Shown: positions 48,914 to 54,869 of the stretch, piece after piece
Layout: every line of letters starts with the position of its first letter
How positions within the stretch are numbered: position 1 is the first letter of the stretch
Source: Tabrizicola thermarum
Lineage (GTDB): Bacteria > Pseudomonadota > Alphaproteobacteria > Rhodobacterales > Rhodobacteraceae
Assembly (NCBI RefSeq): GCF_003574395.1
Contig: NZ_QMJY01000010.1
Span: forward strand, 1-64,000
Reading direction: 5' to 3'
Length of the DNA stretch: 64,000 nucleotides
The notes under the pieces: model-generated
The model's input: only the letters and a program-made list of their open reading frames with translations
What the model was told of the DNA's origin: nothing
Databases searched by the model: none
Program-made: the position numbers and the translations under genes

Positions 48914-50944
48914 ATGGGGGCCTCCGGCATGTTCCGGTTTCAAGTCGATCTTCTGGGATCCTGCCGGGTCGTCCGCATCGCTTCGGGCGAGGAGGTGGCC
49001 TTCAAGACCCGCAAGGCGCGCTGCCTGCTGGGCCTGTTGCTGCTGAGCCCGGGCTGCCGGATGAACCGGGAGCAGCTGGCCTCGCTGTTGTGGGACCCCG
49101 CCCCCGAGGCGCTGGCGCGGTCGAGCCTGCGGCAGGCGCTGCGCGAGTTGAAGGAGGTCCTTGGGCCGAACGGCGAGGATGTGGTCGAGGCAGACCGCTT
49201 TTCGGTGGGCCTGAAGGGCACGGCCTTCGATCTGGACGTGCGGCGGTTCCGCGACTTGATTGCCGCTTCGGCGCAGGACCAGAGCGCGCTTCTGGCGGCG
49301 GCGGCGCTGTGGCAGGGCGAGCTGTTCGGCCCGGCCCAGCCCAGCGCCCCGGTCTTCGAGGCCTGGTTGCAGATCGAGCGGTCGCAACTGCGGTCGGTGC
49401 TGACCACGGCGCTGGCCGATCAGCTGGAAAAGCTGATCGCCACGGGGGTTTTCACGGACACGCGGGTTGCCGAAGAGCTGGTCCGCATCGAGCCGAGCCA
49501 TGAATTGGCGCATCAGTTCATCATGCGCTTTCACGCGCAGAGGGGCGACCAGTCGGCGGCGCTGCGGCAGTATGCGATGCTGGAGCAGGCGCTGGCCGAC
49601 GAGCTGGACAGCGAGCCGAGCGAGGCGTCGAACGAGCTTCTGGTCGCGATCAAGAGCGGCGAAATATCGTTGCAGCGCGCGCCCGCGATGGCGTCGGCCC
49701 CTGCCCCGGCCCGAACGCGCAGCGGACCGCCACGGATCACCATTCGCCCGCCGCTGACGCGCTATGTCGACAGCAGCAAGGATTACCTGGGCGAGGGCTT
49801 TGCCTTTCTGGCCAAGTCCTGCCTGTCGCGCTTTCGCTGCTGGATCGTGATCCCCTGGCCGTCCAGCGGGTTCGACTCGACCACGGCGGTGGATTTCACC
49901 GCAGTCGGTCAGGTGATCGACGCGGATTATGCGGTGGACTGCGTGCTGGACTGGCGCACCGGCGAGGGCAAGCTGTTCGTGACGCTGATCGACTGCCGCG
50001 ACGGCAGCGAGGTCTGGTCGGCGCTCTACCCGGTGGCGGAGACCGAGTTGCAGGAGGTCAGCTCTTCGGTCGCGGGGGCGGTGGCGGCGCATCTCGCCAG
50101 CCAGGTCAACCACAGCACGCTTTTGCGTCACGCCCGCAGCACCCCGGGCAATCCGGTGGCCTATGACCTTTGGCTGAAGGGTCATCAGCTGTCGCGGCTG
50201 TGGACGGCCGAAGCCGATGCCGAGGCCGAGGAGATGTTCCTGAAAGCGATCGAGCTGGACCCCGGTCTTGCGGGCAGCCATGCGAGCCTGGCGCAGATCC
50301 TGTGCAGCCGGAGCCTGGTGCGACCGGGCTATCCGGGGCGCAAGGCCGATTGCGCGGCGGCCTTCCGTCATGCACGCGAGGCGATCGCGCTGGACCCCTA
50401 CGATCCGCGCTGCCACATCAGCATGGCCTGGAACTGGCTGATCGCCAAATCGGCCGAGCGGGCGAACACCCATTTCCGGATGGCGGTGGACCTGAACCCG
50501 AACGATGCCGAGGCGCTGATCGCCGCCGCCTGCGGCCTGGCGTTCCTGGGGCACATCGAGGACGCCAAGGGTCTGGCCGCGAAGGCGGTGCAGATGAACC
50601 CGGTCTATCCCGAGTATTACACCGACTATCTGTCCGCGATCCAGTTTCTGGACGGCGATTATGCGGCCACGATCGAGACGGTGGAGAAATGCTATGAGGG
50701 CTTCCCGGACCGCGCCGCCCTGGCTGCGGCCGCCTGGGCCCTGCAAGGCAACATCGAAAAGGCCGAGGCGGTCTATCGCTATTTCGCCGAGCTGACGGAA
50801 TCGAAATGGGAAGGCGCAGGGCGCGCGGACGACAACGACCTGGAAGGATGGATCATGGACGTCCTGCCGATCCACTGGCCGAAGGGTCGCCAGAGCCTGC
50901 TGAAGGGTCTGCGGCTTGCCCGCCAGATGGCCGAGCAAGCCTGA
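48914..50944 (+). CDS. BTAD/SARP-type transcriptional regulator with TolB-like and TPR regions, 676 aa
   Basis: The N-terminus (about 5-95) is a winged-helix DNA-binding domain with KTRKARCLLGLLLLSPGCRM and MNREQLASLLWDPAPEALAR. A BTAD domain follows (about 100-240; ALWQGELFGPAQPSAPVFEA, HELAHQFIMRFHAQRGDQSA). Residues about 270-390 resemble the TolB-like segment seen in CadC/adenylate-cyclase-linked regulators, and 400-660 are TPR-like helices with AEEMFLKAIELDPGLAGSHA. Such proteins activate nearby clusters. Here it is 12 bases from a convergent 125-residue gene and precedes the YcaO-peroxidase unit. No membrane segment is visible. An ATG five codons downstream is an alternative start. Confidence 0.85.
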   Translation: MGASGMFRFQVDLLGSCRVVRIASGEEVAFKTRKARCLLGLLLLSPGCRMNREQLASLLWDPAPEALARSSLRQALRELKEVLGPNGEDVVEADRFSVGLKGTAFDLDVRRFRDLIAASAQDQSALLAAAALWQGELFGPAQPSAPVFEAWLQIERSQLRSVLTTALADQLEKLIATGVFTDTRVAEELVRIEPSHELAHQFIMRFHAQRGDQSAALRQYAMLEQALADELDSEPSEASNELLVAIKSGEISLQRAPAMASAPAPARTRSGPPRITIRPPLTRYVDSSKDYLGEGFAFLAKSCLSRFRCWIVIPWPSSGFDSTTAVDFTAVGQVIDADYAVDCVLDWRTGEGKLFVTLIDCRDGSEVWSALYPVAETELQEVSSSVAGAVAAHLASQVNHSTLLRHARSTPGNPVAYDLWLKGHQLSRLWTAEADAEAEEMFLKAIELDPGLAGSHASLAQILCSRSLVRPGYPGRKADCAAAFRHAREAIALDPYDPRCHISMAWNWLIAKSAERANTHFRMAVDLNPNDAEALIAAACGLAFLGHIEDAKGLAAKAVQMNPVYPEYYTDYLSAIQFLDGDYAATIETVEKCYEGFPDRAALAAAAWALQGNIEKAEAVYRYFAELTESKWEGAGRADDNDLEGWIMDVLPIHWPKGRQSLLKGLRLARQMAEQA

Positions 50945-50956
50945 TCCGGGCCCTGC

Positions 50957-51334
50957 CTACCGGCACTTGCGCATGAAGTAGCGCGCCAGCACCACCCTGG
51001 AGCGGACCTTGTCGGTGTTGCCGTAGGTGGCTTCGTCCTTGACCTTGAAGGTCTTCAGATCGCCCGCCCAGGGCACCCTCACATGCATCCGGTTCGGCGT
51101 GTCATAGACCGGCACGATCTCGATGCTGTCCGGGATCTCGCCGTTCGGGCCGGCCCCCGGGCCTTCGTAGCGATAGCCGTTGTCGAAGAGCCATTTGCGG
51201 GTGTCGTCGTTGAACTTCTTCCATTCCGAATTCGGCGTGTCGCGGAAGGCGCTCTTGCTGACGCGGATGATCGCCTCGCCCGTCGCTTCCTGATCGGCAA
51301 TTGCGTCGCTTTTCAGTGTGAAGAACCCTGCCAT
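50957..51334 (-). CDS. Orphan 125-aa protein, possible partner or substrate of the YcaO unit
   Basis: I do not recognise a family. The protein starts MAGFFTLKSDAIADQEATGE, has a central KKFNDDTRKWLFDNGYRYEG and a Gly/Pro-rich turn GPGAGPNGEIPD, and ends in a basic tail with the only Cys, VLARYFMRKCR. It has neither signal peptide nor membrane helix. The ATG at 51334 is preceded by GGGAGA; the open frame upstream is antisense to the YcaO gene. It is divergent from YcaO across 145 bases and convergent with the BTAD regulator. A modified protein, an adaptor or an unrelated passenger are all possible. Confidence 0.68.
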   Translation of the reverse strand: MAGFFTLKSDAIADQEATGEAIIRVSKSAFRDTPNSEWKKFNDDTRKWLFDNGYRYEGPGAGPNGEIPDSIEIVPVYDTPNRMHVRVPWAGDLKTFKVKDEATYGNTDKVRSRVVLARYFMRKCR

Positions 51335-51479
51335 TGCTGTCTCCCTCTCCCGTATCGGGCTGCTTGTTGACGATTGCCTTGACCCACTCTTCCGACGGGT
51401 CGTGATGCCAGCGTGAAATGGGCCGAGGGTTTCTGATTCCGGCCTTGAACCTTGTCGGCATCCTGCCTTGAATGGCGGC

Positions 51480-52538
51480 ATGAAGCAAAACCCGGCCGAG
51501 ATGAATGCACGGGTATCGCGCGCCTTGAGCCAGGATTTCCGGGTCATGGCGCTGGATGCTCCCGAGGCGCCGTTGTTCCTGGCAATCGCCGTGCCGCTGG
51601 AGGACGGTGTCACGGGCCTCAAGCCGCGGCTGCCGGCCGGGCGGGGGATGACGTTGCAGCAGGCGCTTCTGTCGGCAGGGGCCGAGGCGCTGGAGCTGCG
51701 GGCGAGCCTTGCGCAGCAGCATCTGGCCGCGCTGCGCGCGCTGCCGCGGCGGGACGGGCTGGCCATGGTCGGGGCGACCGACATGGCGTCGGGCGCGGCG
51801 GTGGAGGTCGCGGCGCAAGGCGTCTACCTGGACTGCGCGGCGGTGCTGTCCGAACCTTTGCAGACCGACGCGGGGTCCACCGGCTGCGCGGCGGGGCCGG
51901 ATCGTGACAGCGCGCTGGCGCGGGCGCTGTGGGAATGTGTGGAGCGCGACGCAGTGGCCCTGTGGTGGCACGGCCACCGGCAGGGCGGCGCGGTCGCGAC
52001 CGAGATCATCGACGCGCAGCAGCCCCGGCTGTTCTGGTGGCTGCACCAGCGCAGCCGGGTGACGCGGCTGATCGAGGTGACGACCGATATCGGCCTGCCG
52101 GTGGTGGTCGCGGTGGCGGCAGAGCCGGACGGGACAAGGGTCGCGGTAGGCTCGGCGGCGCGGCCAAGGCTGGCGGATGCGGCGCTGGCGGCGGTGACCG
52201 AGATGGTGCAGACCGAAGTGAGCCTGGATCATGCCTCTGCCGCAGGCGATCCCGAGGCGCTGGCCTGGATCGCCAGGGCCTCAACGCTGGAGCAGCCGCA
52301 GTTCATCGCGGGGCCGGAGCGGCCCGGGGCGACGCTGGAGCTGCCCGCGCTTCTGGCCCGGCTGGCCGATCTGGGGCTTCGCGCCCTGGCGGTGGACCTG
52401 ACCCTGCCCGGAGATCCCTTGCCGACAGTGCGGGTTCTGGTCCCCGGCCTGTGCGCAATGGGCGAAGCGACCGACCTGCCCCGCTTTGCCCGGCTTTGTC
52501 CGGGTGTTCCGCGCCTGAGCCTGCCCGAACCCTACTGA
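51480..52538 (+). CDS. Stand-alone YcaO domain protein, 352 aa
   Basis: YcaO proteins use ATP to activate peptide-backbone amides, giving azolines, thioamides or amidines, and some modify ribosomal proteins. The ATP/Mg motifs are in the expected order: LLSAGAEALELRASL, the hallmark STGCAAGPDRDSALARALWE then CVERDAVALWW, and AALAAVTEMVQTEV for the ExxQ helix. The C-terminus LSLPEPY is a reduced version of the Pro-rich tail (PxPxP) that reaches the active site in azoline-forming enzymes. No TfuA, ThiF-like or RiPP-recognition partner is encoded nearby. The ATG at 51480 is used rather than a TTG four codons earlier. The peroxidase gene starts 22 bases downstream. Confidence 0.85.
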   Translation: MKQNPAEMNARVSRALSQDFRVMALDAPEAPLFLAIAVPLEDGVTGLKPRLPAGRGMTLQQALLSAGAEALELRASLAQQHLAALRALPRRDGLAMVGATDMASGAAVEVAAQGVYLDCAAVLSEPLQTDAGSTGCAAGPDRDSALARALWECVERDAVALWWHGHRQGGAVATEIIDAQQPRLFWWLHQRSRVTRLIEVTTDIGLPVVVAVAAEPDGTRVAVGSAARPRLADAALAAVTEMVQTEVSLDHASAAGDPEALAWIARASTLEQPQFIAGPERPGATLELPALLARLADLGLRALAVDLTLPGDPLPTVRVLVPGLCAMGEATDLPRFARLCPGVPRLSLPEPY

Positions 52539-52560
52539 CCCCAGAGCCGCGAGGCCACCC

Positions 52561-54222
52561 ATGCCGACCATCACCAGCCCGCACAGTCTTTTCCCCGAGG
52601 GTGTCCCCGAGGCCCGCGGCACCCGGAGCGCAAGGCCGTCGCAATCGGGCTACTGCTTTCTTTTCCCCGATCTGGCGCGCCGCGACGATGTGGGATGCTT
52701 TGCCGGAACCTCGGCCGCGCTGAGCTTTGCCCGGCTCGTCGCCTTCGAGAAGGCCAGCCGCGAGCCCTTGAGCGCGCCGGAAGTGCTGCCGATGCGGTTG
52801 CCGGCGGCCTACACCTATTTCGGGCAGTTCGTGAACCACGACATCTCGGCCCCGGTGGGGGATGTGGTCACGCTGGCCGAAATCCCGGCGGGGGTGGGCG
52901 TGATCGGCACCGCCTTGCCGGGCGGGCTGGACCGGGCGCAGCGTGCGCTGCCCGAGGTGATCCTGGACAATTTCGTCAACGAACAGGCCAATCCGCTTGC
53001 GCTGGACAGTCTGTACGGCGACGGGCCGGACAGCGCCGATCCGGCCATCCGGGCGCTCTATGCGGCGGATGGCAAGCGGTTCAGGCTGGGCGTCACGCGG
53101 ACCGAGGACCCGCAGGTGTTCATCGACAGCGGGAAGGATCCGGCGCGGGTCATCCATGACATCGGGGCACCCGACATCCTGCGGCGGAACGGCAAGCCGC
53201 TGATTGCCGACCACCGCAACGACGAGAACCTGATCATCAGCCAGCTGCATCTGGCGTTCCTCCTGTTTCACAACAAGGCCGTCGCGGTTCTGGAGCGGGA
53301 CCTCCCCGATCCGGCAGCATGCTTTGCCGCGGCCCGGCAGCTGGTGACGCTGCACTATCACTGGCTGATCCTGAACGATTTCCTGCCGAGCCTGCTGTCG
53401 CCCCAGGCCCTGCGGATCCCGCTGGCGCAGCGGCCGCAGAAACTGCCCGCCGCGCGGACCGTGCCGCTGGAGTTCACCACGGCCGCCTTCCGCTTTGGCC
53501 ATTCGATGGTCGGCGCCTTCTACGATTTCAACGCGAATTTCGGCCGCGGCGGGCGGATCGAACGTGACGGCGCCAGTCTGGCCGAGCTGTTCTCCTTCAC
53601 CACGCAGCGCAACATGGGCAGACCGGGGGCCGCGACCTTGCAGCTTCCCGACCACTGGGTGATCGACTGGGACCGGATGACCCGCCCGCCGCGCCGCACT
53701 CCCGGGCCGGGCGGGGCGGAACGGATCGACCTGACCTTCGCGCCGGACATGCTGAACGCGATGGGACATTCGAATGTGGCGGTGCACGGGTCGATCCTGT
53801 TCCGCAACCTGATGCGCGGGTTTCAGCGCCGGATCGCCTTTGGGCAAGAGCTGGCGCAGGCCTGCGGGCTGACGCCGATGTCGCCGGACGAAGTGCGCGC
53901 CGCCCTGCCGGACACCAACCCGGCCAAGCCCGGAGCGAAGAGCCTGCGCACCACCGCAGAGGAGCTGGGGATGCTGGACCAGACGCCGGCCTGGCTGTAT
54001 TTCCTGTGCGAGGCGCGGCACTACGAACAGGGCGAGCGGCTGGGGCCTGCGGCAAGTCTTGTCATCGCCGACACGATTTCCGGGCTGATGCAGTTCATGC
54101 CGACATCGGTGGTGAACCACGCCGGCGGCACCTGGCACCCGCGGCAGAGCCCGTTGCGGGGGCCGGGCGGGCGGGGGCTGACCACGCTGCGGTCGCTGCT
54201 GACCTTTGCTGTGGCCAGGTAG
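52561..54222 (+). CDS. Animal-type (peroxidase-cyclooxygenase) heme peroxidase, 553 aa
   Basis: The protein matches the animal heme peroxidase superfamily. The distal His93 with Asp94 is in TYFGQFVNHDIS, the catalytic Arg219 with Glu222 in LIADHRNDENLI, and the proximal His314 in AAFRFGHSMVGAFYDFN. The helix SQLHLAFLLFHNKAVAVLE and the HYHWLILNDFLPSLLS segment are also typical. The family oxidises halides, tyrosines or fatty acids with peroxide. No signal peptide is visible, unusual for this mostly exported group. It follows YcaO by 22 bases, so cotranscription and perhaps a common substrate are likely. Asp94 and Glu222 are in the positions that esterify haem in mammalian enzymes. Confidence 0.9.
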   Translation: MPTITSPHSLFPEGVPEARGTRSARPSQSGYCFLFPDLARRDDVGCFAGTSAALSFARLVAFEKASREPLSAPEVLPMRLPAAYTYFGQFVNHDISAPVGDVVTLAEIPAGVGVIGTALPGGLDRAQRALPEVILDNFVNEQANPLALDSLYGDGPDSADPAIRALYAADGKRFRLGVTRTEDPQVFIDSGKDPARVIHDIGAPDILRRNGKPLIADHRNDENLIISQLHLAFLLFHNKAVAVLERDLPDPAACFAAARQLVTLHYHWLILNDFLPSLLSPQALRIPLAQRPQKLPAARTVPLEFTTAAFRFGHSMVGAFYDFNANFGRGGRIERDGASLAELFSFTTQRNMGRPGAATLQLPDHWVIDWDRMTRPPRRTPGPGGAERIDLTFAPDMLNAMGHSNVAVHGSILFRNLMRGFQRRIAFGQELAQACGLTPMSPDEVRAALPDTNPAKPGAKSLRTTAEELGMLDQTPAWLYFLCEARHYEQGERLGPAASLVIADTISGLMQFMPTSVVNHAGGTWHPRQSPLRGPGGRGLTTLRSLLTFAVAR

Positions 54223-54374
54223 TCGCCCCTGCCTGCGCTGACGCGATCGTCAGGGGCACCGGGCTGGACAGTCGGGCGAATTCATCTCATAGACACGGCG
54301 TCGGGCAAGGCGCACCGCGCTGTCCGACATCGACCTTGCGCCCCCGTGACGTCCTGCCAGAGACAGCTTCACCC

Positions 54375-54869
54375 ATGACCGTTGACCCGACCCAGCCGTC
54401 CCCGCGCCATCCCCGCCTGCCCAGGTCCCGCCAGTTGGTCCTGGCGCTGATCCTGCCGCTGGCGGCCTGTGCCGATTCGACCAGCACGATGCAGCTGTAC
54501 CCGCTGTCGGGCGAGATCGCCGAAGCCAACCCGACCCTGGTGATCCGCGCCACCGCCCGGAACACCAGCGGCACCTCGGGCCCCCTTGCCTTCCGCATCC
54601 CCAAGCGCGGCAAGTGCACCGGCACCTGGACCTCGCTGACACCGCGCGTGGTGTCGAACTCGCAAGGACTGGCGCTGACCTGGAAGAAGACCGGCGGCGA
54701 GGTCGGCGTGAAGCGCGAGACGGTCGCGGGCGTCAACAACGGGGAAATCTACGCGGTCTGCGACGACGGCACCCGGGTGCAGGGCACCTTCGTGGTCGGA
54801 TCGGGCACGGCCAGCGGCACGGGACAGGCCACGGACACCAACGGCAACGTCTACAAGCTCTTGTTCTAG
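54375..54869 (+). CDS. Putative lipoprotein, 164 aa
   Basis: A basic stretch (RHPRLPRSR) and hydrophobic LVLALILPLAAC form a type II signal with lipobox LAAC near residue 32, followed by ADS, which fits outer-membrane sorting. The mature part repeats the style LVIRATARNTSGTSGPLAFR, with paired Cys in RGKCTGTW and YAVCDDGTR, and a Gly/Thr-rich beta end in GTASGTGQATDTNG. Family unknown. The ATG at 54375 is the only good start, though the pre-signal segment of about 19 residues is long. It is 152 bases after the peroxidase gene and overlaps the end of convergent aroB by 4 bases. Confidence 0.72.
   Translation: MTVDPTQPSPRHPRLPRSRQLVLALILPLAACADSTSTMQLYPLSGEIAEANPTLVIRATARNTSGTSGPLAFRIPKRGKCTGTWTSLTPRVVSNSQGLALTWKKTGGEVGVKRETVAGVNNGEIYAVCDDGTRVQGTFVVGSGTASGTGQATDTNGNVYKLLF

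Follow-up and report, generated by a model that had tools for sequence, protein, structure and literature searches.

The YcaO and heme peroxidase genes lie in a four-gene locus

The 64,000-nucleotide stretch of the Tabrizicola thermarum genome analysed here (hereafter the window; contig C6 in our numbering of the 3.65-Mb genome) carries a stand-alone YcaO gene and an animal-type heme peroxidase gene, accompanied by a gene for a winged helix-turn-helix (wHTH)-BTAD-TPR protein and by a divergently oriented gene for a 125-aa protein without a known family, referred to below as the orphan (Table 1). The original prediction had grouped these four genes with a following lipoprotein gene, and coordinates and Pfam matches place all five where it had put them, with the YcaO stop codon and the peroxidase gene 22 bases apart on the same strand. 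YcaO and animal peroxidase each have one match in the whole genome, both at this locus (L041 in our locus numbering). For YcaO, the start at 51480 is more likely than the alternative TTG at 51468. The orphan lies in a longer open frame (275 aa), but a GGAGAC site precedes the ATG at 51334, and close relatives share this start position.

Table 1. Features of the YcaO–peroxidase locus (positions in the window)
Feature	Position	Strand	Evidence
wHTH-BTAD-TPR protein, probable pathway regulator	48914..50944	+	Pfam BTAD E 2.8e-15, TPR_17 E 8.1e-8
125-aa orphan protein, candidate substrate/precursor	50957..51334	- (opposite to YcaO)	without Pfam/NCBIfam family
C124 codon, penultimate Cys, candidate YcaO target	50963..50965	-	invariant in 52-row orphan alignment
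Y119 codon, C124 minus five, candidate peroxidase target	50978..50980	-	invariant in 52-row orphan alignment
Orphan-YcaO intergenic region, expected site of both promoters	51335..51479	.	sequence
Stand-alone YcaO	51480..52538	+	PF02624 E 3.7e-35
Animal-type heme peroxidase	52561..54222	+	PF03098 E 2e-12
N92 codon, replaces the aspartate preceding the distal His of non-cluster relatives	52834..52836	+	
Lipoprotein gene, flank	about 54375-54869	+	

The four genes form a conserved unit

GTDB contigs were scanned with a BTAD alignment, and the best 80 of 140 confirmed relatives yielded 79 named loci. The BTAD score divided these loci into two groups, 59 scoring 488 or more and 20 scoring 376 or less, and this division separated cluster-bearing from cluster-free loci. 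Among the 59 high-scoring loci, the orphan was present in 58, YcaO in 53 and the peroxidase in 53 (the last count being hand-set for two loci, with L160 assigned its second peroxidase and L170 none; the automatic count was 54), whereas each of the three was found in 0/20 low-scoring loci, some of which lie on short contigs (e.g., L174, L197, L199). Several gene gaps in the high-scoring loci coincide with contig ends. Hosts were mainly Rhodobacteraceae, Acetobacteraceae/Roseomonadaceae and Hyphomicrobiales, plus one metagenome-assembled genome (MAG) labelled Nitrosovibrio; among the best 80 of 140 relatives, the named ones nearest to the window's BTAD protein came from Rhodobacter, Tabrizicola and Rhodobacteraceae MAGs.

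Co-occurrence at lower taxonomic ranks revealed the same pattern. Across 32 genomes of the window's genus, the orphan, a close YcaO (E <= 1e-80) and a close peroxidase occurred in an identical set of 13, one of which (G692) has its peroxidase cut by a contig end. The remaining 19 had no orphan, and three of them carried distant matches only: G678 a YcaO and a peroxidase about 4 kb apart, G693 both on different contigs, and G688 a peroxidase. Across 295 genomes of the family, the orphan was present in three, always with adjacent BTAD, YcaO and peroxidase genes. A YcaO search of these 295 genomes matched 28, and YcaO and animal peroxidase occurred together in at least 13, several of the remaining matched genomes having been inspected over only 1.5 kb on each side. 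A class-wide search with a peroxidase hidden Markov model (HMM) matched 29 of 385 genomes and yielded 19 high-scoring regions besides the window; five of these contained adjacent YcaO and BTAD- or cyclase-TPR genes, and 14 contained neither. Of 12 low-scoring regions, the 11 inspected (all but G406) contained none of these genes.

The gene set also occurs in distant families with altered gene order. Two layouts were common: in 25 loci YcaO and BTAD face the orphan and peroxidase genes, and in 16 the arrangement is that of the window. On plasmids of Mesorhizobium and Paroceanicella the four genes recur in different orders, annotated there as 'YcaO-like family protein', 'peroxidase family protein' and 'hypothetical protein'. 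Together, these observations establish that the BTAD-TPR, orphan, YcaO and peroxidase genes are a real, widespread and conserved unit whose grouping exceeds chance.

In five high-scoring loci (L146, L152, L167, L173 and L176) the peroxidase adjoins the orphan and YcaO is missing from the locus. YcaO lies elsewhere in the genome for L146 and L167 (with an internal stop in the latter), and L173 and L176 are short contigs.

Several loci depart from the common pattern. L148, from a MAG labelled Asaia, has a high-scoring BTAD-TPR gene, with YcaO, peroxidase and orphan all absent from its 11.9-kb contig; pieces of YcaO occur at contig ends elsewhere in that genome. In L138 (the same place as G685:C6), YcaO is split in two by an internal stop while the orphan (tail ARYFMRRCR) and the peroxidase are open, either a decayed copy or an assembly error. 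BTAD-TPR relatives of intermediate score (365-376) in Thiocapsa (L172, L177, L178) have no YcaO, peroxidase or orphan nearby. A further clade, L117-L119 (G206, G099, G145), has very divergent YcaO and peroxidase proteins and small proteins of 223-242 aa ending in AVGIY[MI]TxMCx. L089 and L091 contain a different YcaO–peroxidase pair, accompanied by a TPR gene, which in L091 is a cyclase-TPR gene, and by a small protein ending in HHLIR[CS]CA[AS]C (L089:2725-3252(-), L091:7078-7485(-)). The YcaO of this pair falls among non-cluster YcaOs, and a system of this kind may have been assembled independently here. In L155, the peroxidase position is taken by a 564-aa protein (L155:3766-5457(-)) whose N-terminus looks by eye like a signal peptide and which matches nothing in Pfam.

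The orphan protein ends in a fixed Tyr/Cys tail

The orphan matched no Pfam or NCBIfam family at E values up to 1, and hmmscan of eight of its relatives returned nothing from NCBIfam. In an alignment of 52 orphans (11-86% identity to that of the window), the only invariant columns were Met1, Tyr119 and Cys124 of 125. Among 75 orphan tails (four duplicate loci excluded; the window orphan and L111 added by hand), Cys was penultimate in 72, last in two and third from last in one, and Tyr occupied the Cys-5 position in 68. Models from which the last 16 residues were omitted recovered 60 orphans in 58/59 high-scoring and 0/20 low-scoring loci, and in all 60 Cys was penultimate and Tyr stood at Cys-5. 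As a control, the tail pattern matched 60 of 12,947 open reading frames in the 79 loci, 59 of them beside the BTAD or peroxidase gene of high-scoring loci and one elsewhere. The pattern recovered the orphan in 57 of the 59 high-scoring loci, missing L138 and L148; the tail-free models missed only L148.

In two genomes (L040:12425-14413(-) and L196:11972-13840(-)), the orphan constitutes the C-terminal domain of the peroxidase in one frame ending in VGDYTIAQCK. The small protein therefore looks like the substrate, as originally suggested, because its C-terminal Tyr and Cys are fixed and because it is fused to the peroxidase. The predicted structure of the window orphan has a helical tail (residues 108-124) with a mean predicted local distance difference test (pLDDT) score of 85. 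Two tandem orphans, all ending in RIGDYS[IV]RNCG, occur in each of two Bradyrhizobium loci (L158, L168). By eye, orphans of several clades resemble nitrile hydratase leader peptides (NHLP; GxxLP...xLRLPP); this leader assignment was dropped, as TIGR03793 matched no orphan locus in the eight genomes searched, and the NCBIfam hmmscan of eight relatives and Foldseek with the window model gave no match.

Both enzymes retain their predicted active sites, and the peroxidase lacks an aspartate

YcaO residues E73, E76, E156, E159, R160 and E245 (numbered from 51468) are invariant in a nine-row alignment, and the closest solved structures are LynD, TruD and MusD. The protein scores 107 bits against TIGR03604, below the cut-off of 219. 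Pfam and NCBIfam scans of the flanking genes in the window revealed no E1-like/leader-binding partner domain and no FMN-dependent dehydrogenase.

In the peroxidase, the distal Gln and His (Q89, H93), the Arg (R208) and the proximal His (H314) are invariant in a nine-row alignment, and no signal peptide is apparent by inspection. A set of 68 peroxidases encoded no more than 6 kb from a YcaO gene, which includes three loci found twice (L035/L126, L036/L130, L085/L143) and near-copies, keeps the Gln and both His residues in 68/68 and the Arg in 66/68. The fused proteins of L040 and L196 have an aligned Phe where relatives carry the conserved Arg; in a fold search with a fused relative, myeloperoxidase (MPO), lactoperoxidase (LPO) and cyclooxygenase-2 (COX-2) were matched, all at E above 0.04.

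The residue preceding the distal His distinguishes cluster peroxidases from their intact non-cluster relatives. It is Asn92 rather than Asp in the window, and Asp is absent in 66 of the 68 peroxidases near YcaO, being replaced by Asn, Ala, Val, Phe, Gly, Thr or Ser. The two that have it are L160, where the orphan-adjacent peroxidase is another one (QFAAHD), and L170, where the contig ends before that place. Twenty rows were classed as non-cluster in this comparison; five of them adjoin an orphan without YcaO in the locus, and all five lack Asp as well. Intact non-cluster relatives keep it in 14/14 cases, two of them (L084, L088) on contigs under 10 kb; a further non-cluster protein, L090, has Ala at this position and no longer has the distal Gln or the proximal His. 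At a second position, Glu occurs in 14/14 intact non-cluster peroxidases versus 19/68 near YcaO (window included). In mammalian peroxidases an Asp and a Glu form ester bonds with the heme, and we take the two positions to correspond to these; cyclooxygenases are not known to carry the Asp.

A quick tree required three changes for the Asp-less peroxidase (starred branches force two), and independent origins were considered; an approximately unbiased (AU) test left a single Asp-less clade acceptable (p 0.255; p 0.385 without L089/L091). Recruitment of this peroxidase type on more than one occasion is conceivable, with L089/L091 as the candidate case.

Regulator and flanking genes

The BTAD domain of the regulator lies above the Pfam cut-off, in keeping with the cluster-type regulator originally proposed, and the wHTH domain (Trans_reg_C, E 0.0019) lies below it. 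By its domains (wHTH and BTAD) the protein is a probable activator of the Streptomyces antibiotic regulatory protein (SARP)/BTAD type. BTAD-TPR relatives are present throughout the cluster loci; those of L039 and L091 contain a nucleotide cyclase domain (Pfam), and those of L037 and L038 have, in the alignment, an N-terminal extension comparable to that of the cyclase-bearing relatives.

Close relatives share the flanking ABC, PDE, lipoprotein and aroB genes, and the cluster as a whole occurs in differing genomic contexts. The lipoprotein gene is real and follows the peroxidase gene, as predicted, but it was rejected as a cluster member and belongs with aroB in the flank, because eight other loci (L130, L132-L136, L138, L139) carry the cluster genes without the lipoprotein or aroB. 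When the genes neighbouring 70 cluster loci were grouped and the 25 largest groups were read by eye, no peptidase or dedicated exporter was recognised; an ABC-transporter-like group (by eye) occurs in 21/70 loci at a distance of about 6 kb and was taken as superfamily background.

Proposed function and alternatives

From the gene set, its co-inheritance, the conserved tail, the missing Asp, the conserved predicted active-site residues and the orphan–peroxidase fusion, we infer a substrate role for the orphan, together with the chemistry, regulation and biological role outlined below. The system is RiPP-like (ribosomally synthesized and post-translationally modified peptide) in its logic but lacks several defining features of known YcaO classes, and it probably modifies the tail of the small protein chemically. 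We give about an even chance (roughly 0.5) to a cytoplasmic RiPP-like system in which YcaO and then the peroxidase would modify the C-terminal tail of the orphan. The folded N-terminal part of the orphan would serve as a leader built into the protein, and the helical C-terminal tail (Y119...C124-R125) would be the core. With ATP, the stand-alone YcaO would activate the backbone amide before C124, yielding a thiazoline or a related backbone change; the Asp-less peroxidase would next oxidise the same tail, converting thiazoline to thiazole or Tyr119 to a radical that might possibly form a Tyr-Cys link. The BTAD-TPR protein would turn the genes on. This YcaO-first, two-step scheme is the simplest, because the chemistries suit Cys for YcaO and Tyr or thiazoline for the peroxidase, and a terminal Tyr and Cys are nearly the only fixed residues of the whole orphan.

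Because no recurring exporter or protease dedicated to the cluster was recognised in the neighbour groups inspected, the modified tail may remain part of the protein. A tentative, more specific version has YcaO and a peroxidase without the heme-ester Asp acting sequentially on the Tyr...Cys tail of a folded protein to produce a protein-bound, Tyr/Cys-derived heterocycle or cross-link that would serve as a redox cofactor and represent a new class of post-translational modification; in the fused forms, the modified tail would be the peroxidase's own.

Several observations weigh against a fixed two-step scheme. L155, L162 and L180, high-scoring loci of which two are from MAGs, keep the orphan's Tyr/Cys tail although no such peroxidase was found in their genomes, so that the peroxidase may be dispensable there, and the L152 MAG has peroxidase and orphan with no YcaO match in the MAG. 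In the clade L037-L039, L108 and L109, the Cys-5 residue is Ile (four) or Phe (one), and the tail also differs in L089/L091, which makes Tyr less convincing as a target common to all loci. The conservation in the 52-row alignment and the 75 tails is partly circular, because the pattern used for the first orphan collection required a near-terminal Cys and mostly Tyr/Phe; the tail-free models made no use of the tails but were built from the same proteins. Similarity of the YcaO to LynD starts only at LynD residue 396, the N-terminal leader-binding/E1-like half being absent, and TfuA (PF07812) had no match in the genome (a control search matched 1/14). Nor was a known RiPP leader or fold found for the orphan: TIGR03793 (NHLP) gave sub-cut-off matches in 5/8 genomes, none at the orphan locus, and Foldseek found no PDB fold match for the window orphan model.

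The fusions in L040 and L196 also fit a rival in which the orphan is a partner or plug of the peroxidase, acting as its chaperone, its inhibitor or an electron-transfer subunit, and inserts its C-terminal Cys tail into the heme pocket. YcaO would then turn the tail into a protein-derived cofactor or ligand, and the peroxidase would be the final actor rather than a tailoring enzyme. The missing Asp beside the orphan could reflect a remodelled heme pocket, and it fits as well that no exporter or protease dedicated to the cluster was recognised among the neighbour groups inspected; yet L155, L162 and L180 retain both YcaO and the orphan although their genomes yielded no such peroxidase, and the fused model of L196 (mean pLDDT 66, predicted template modelling score (pTM) 0.52) is too low in confidence to place the tail reliably. 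We regard this alternative as unlikely, though less so than those that follow. Patchy occurrence in the genus (13/32), plasmid locations and tandem substrates are all typical of RiPP clusters and would suit a released product, in which a general protease cuts off the modified C-terminal peptide to act as an antibiotic or signal outside the cell. The neighbour groups, with no recognised peptidase and an ABC-like group taken as background, and a tail that is strongly conserved rather than diversified as in competitive RiPP cores, make such a product improbable.

The same patchiness, together with the nucleotide cyclase domain of some regulator relatives (L039, L091), could be read as the mark of an oxidative defence device against phage or stress, which had been the other original suggestion; PADLOC, run on the four cluster proteins of the window and on one relative of the orphan, gave no match, and we consider this role very improbable. 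That the genes are chance neighbours, or merely a syntenic block of unrelated genes, might be argued from the flanks common to close relatives. This explanation is refuted, with next to no probability left to it, because the BTAD score splits the loci, the set recurs in other contexts and, rearranged, in distant families, and its close forms are all-or-none in the genus. The RiPP-like scheme, if correct, would make animal-type heme peroxidases RiPP tailoring enzymes and would have a stand-alone YcaO working at a protein C-terminus. For genes that carry only generic names in the public annotation of two plasmids, the analysis supplies a conserved set of four, in which one protein is the candidate substrate, two of its residues are named as candidate targets and two enzymes are identified.

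Comparison with known systems

The pairing, for which the original prediction knew of no described system, is apparently undescribed: no description of this gene grouping was found among the literature matches listed, in open-licence literature, and no open-licence PubMed Central (PMC) paper contains both 'YcaO' and 'heme peroxidase'. The term 'peroxidase' was not found in PMC4603692 and PMC8120280, and PMC8776678 mentions Dyp peroxidases and, in a separate passage, a YcaO cluster of Roseomonas mucosa.

Azoline RiPP systems (LynD/TruD, linear azol(in)e peptides, MprC with NHLP) are alike in the kind of YcaO, with Glu/Arg residues kept, in a long, apparently folded precursor-like protein with a near-terminal Cys, and in an adjoining oxidoreductase; in PMC12455567, the flavin oxidase MprD partners the YcaO MprC and the precursor has an NHLP leader. 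The present system differs in that its YcaO lacks the N-terminal half, a heme peroxidase replaces the FMN dehydrogenase, a single Cys lies at the C-terminus, and no NHLP match and no recurring exporter or protease were seen. YcaO-TfuA thioamide systems share the stand-alone YcaO; they differ in TfuA, unmatched in this genome, and the three closest solved YcaO structures here are those named above. The 'peptide modification system cyclase' model TIGR04510 shows weak likeness to the window regulator and the L091 cyclase-TPR protein (24 and 38 of 400 bits), and the thiazole/oxazole-modified microcin (TOMM) kinase-cyclase model TIGR03903 to the L091 protein (23 of 706 bits); these scores are far under the cut-offs, and the window protein is of wHTH-BTAD-TPR type.

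Within the peroxidase-cyclooxygenase superfamily, the window enzyme is alike in its above-cut-off PF03098 match, distal Gln and His, Arg and proximal His. It differs in the non-Asp residue before the distal His, in showing no signal peptide by inspection and in the fusion of relatives to the orphan in two genomes. If the protein-bound reading is true, it would be, to our knowledge, the first animal-type heme peroxidase to act as a RiPP-type tailoring enzyme.

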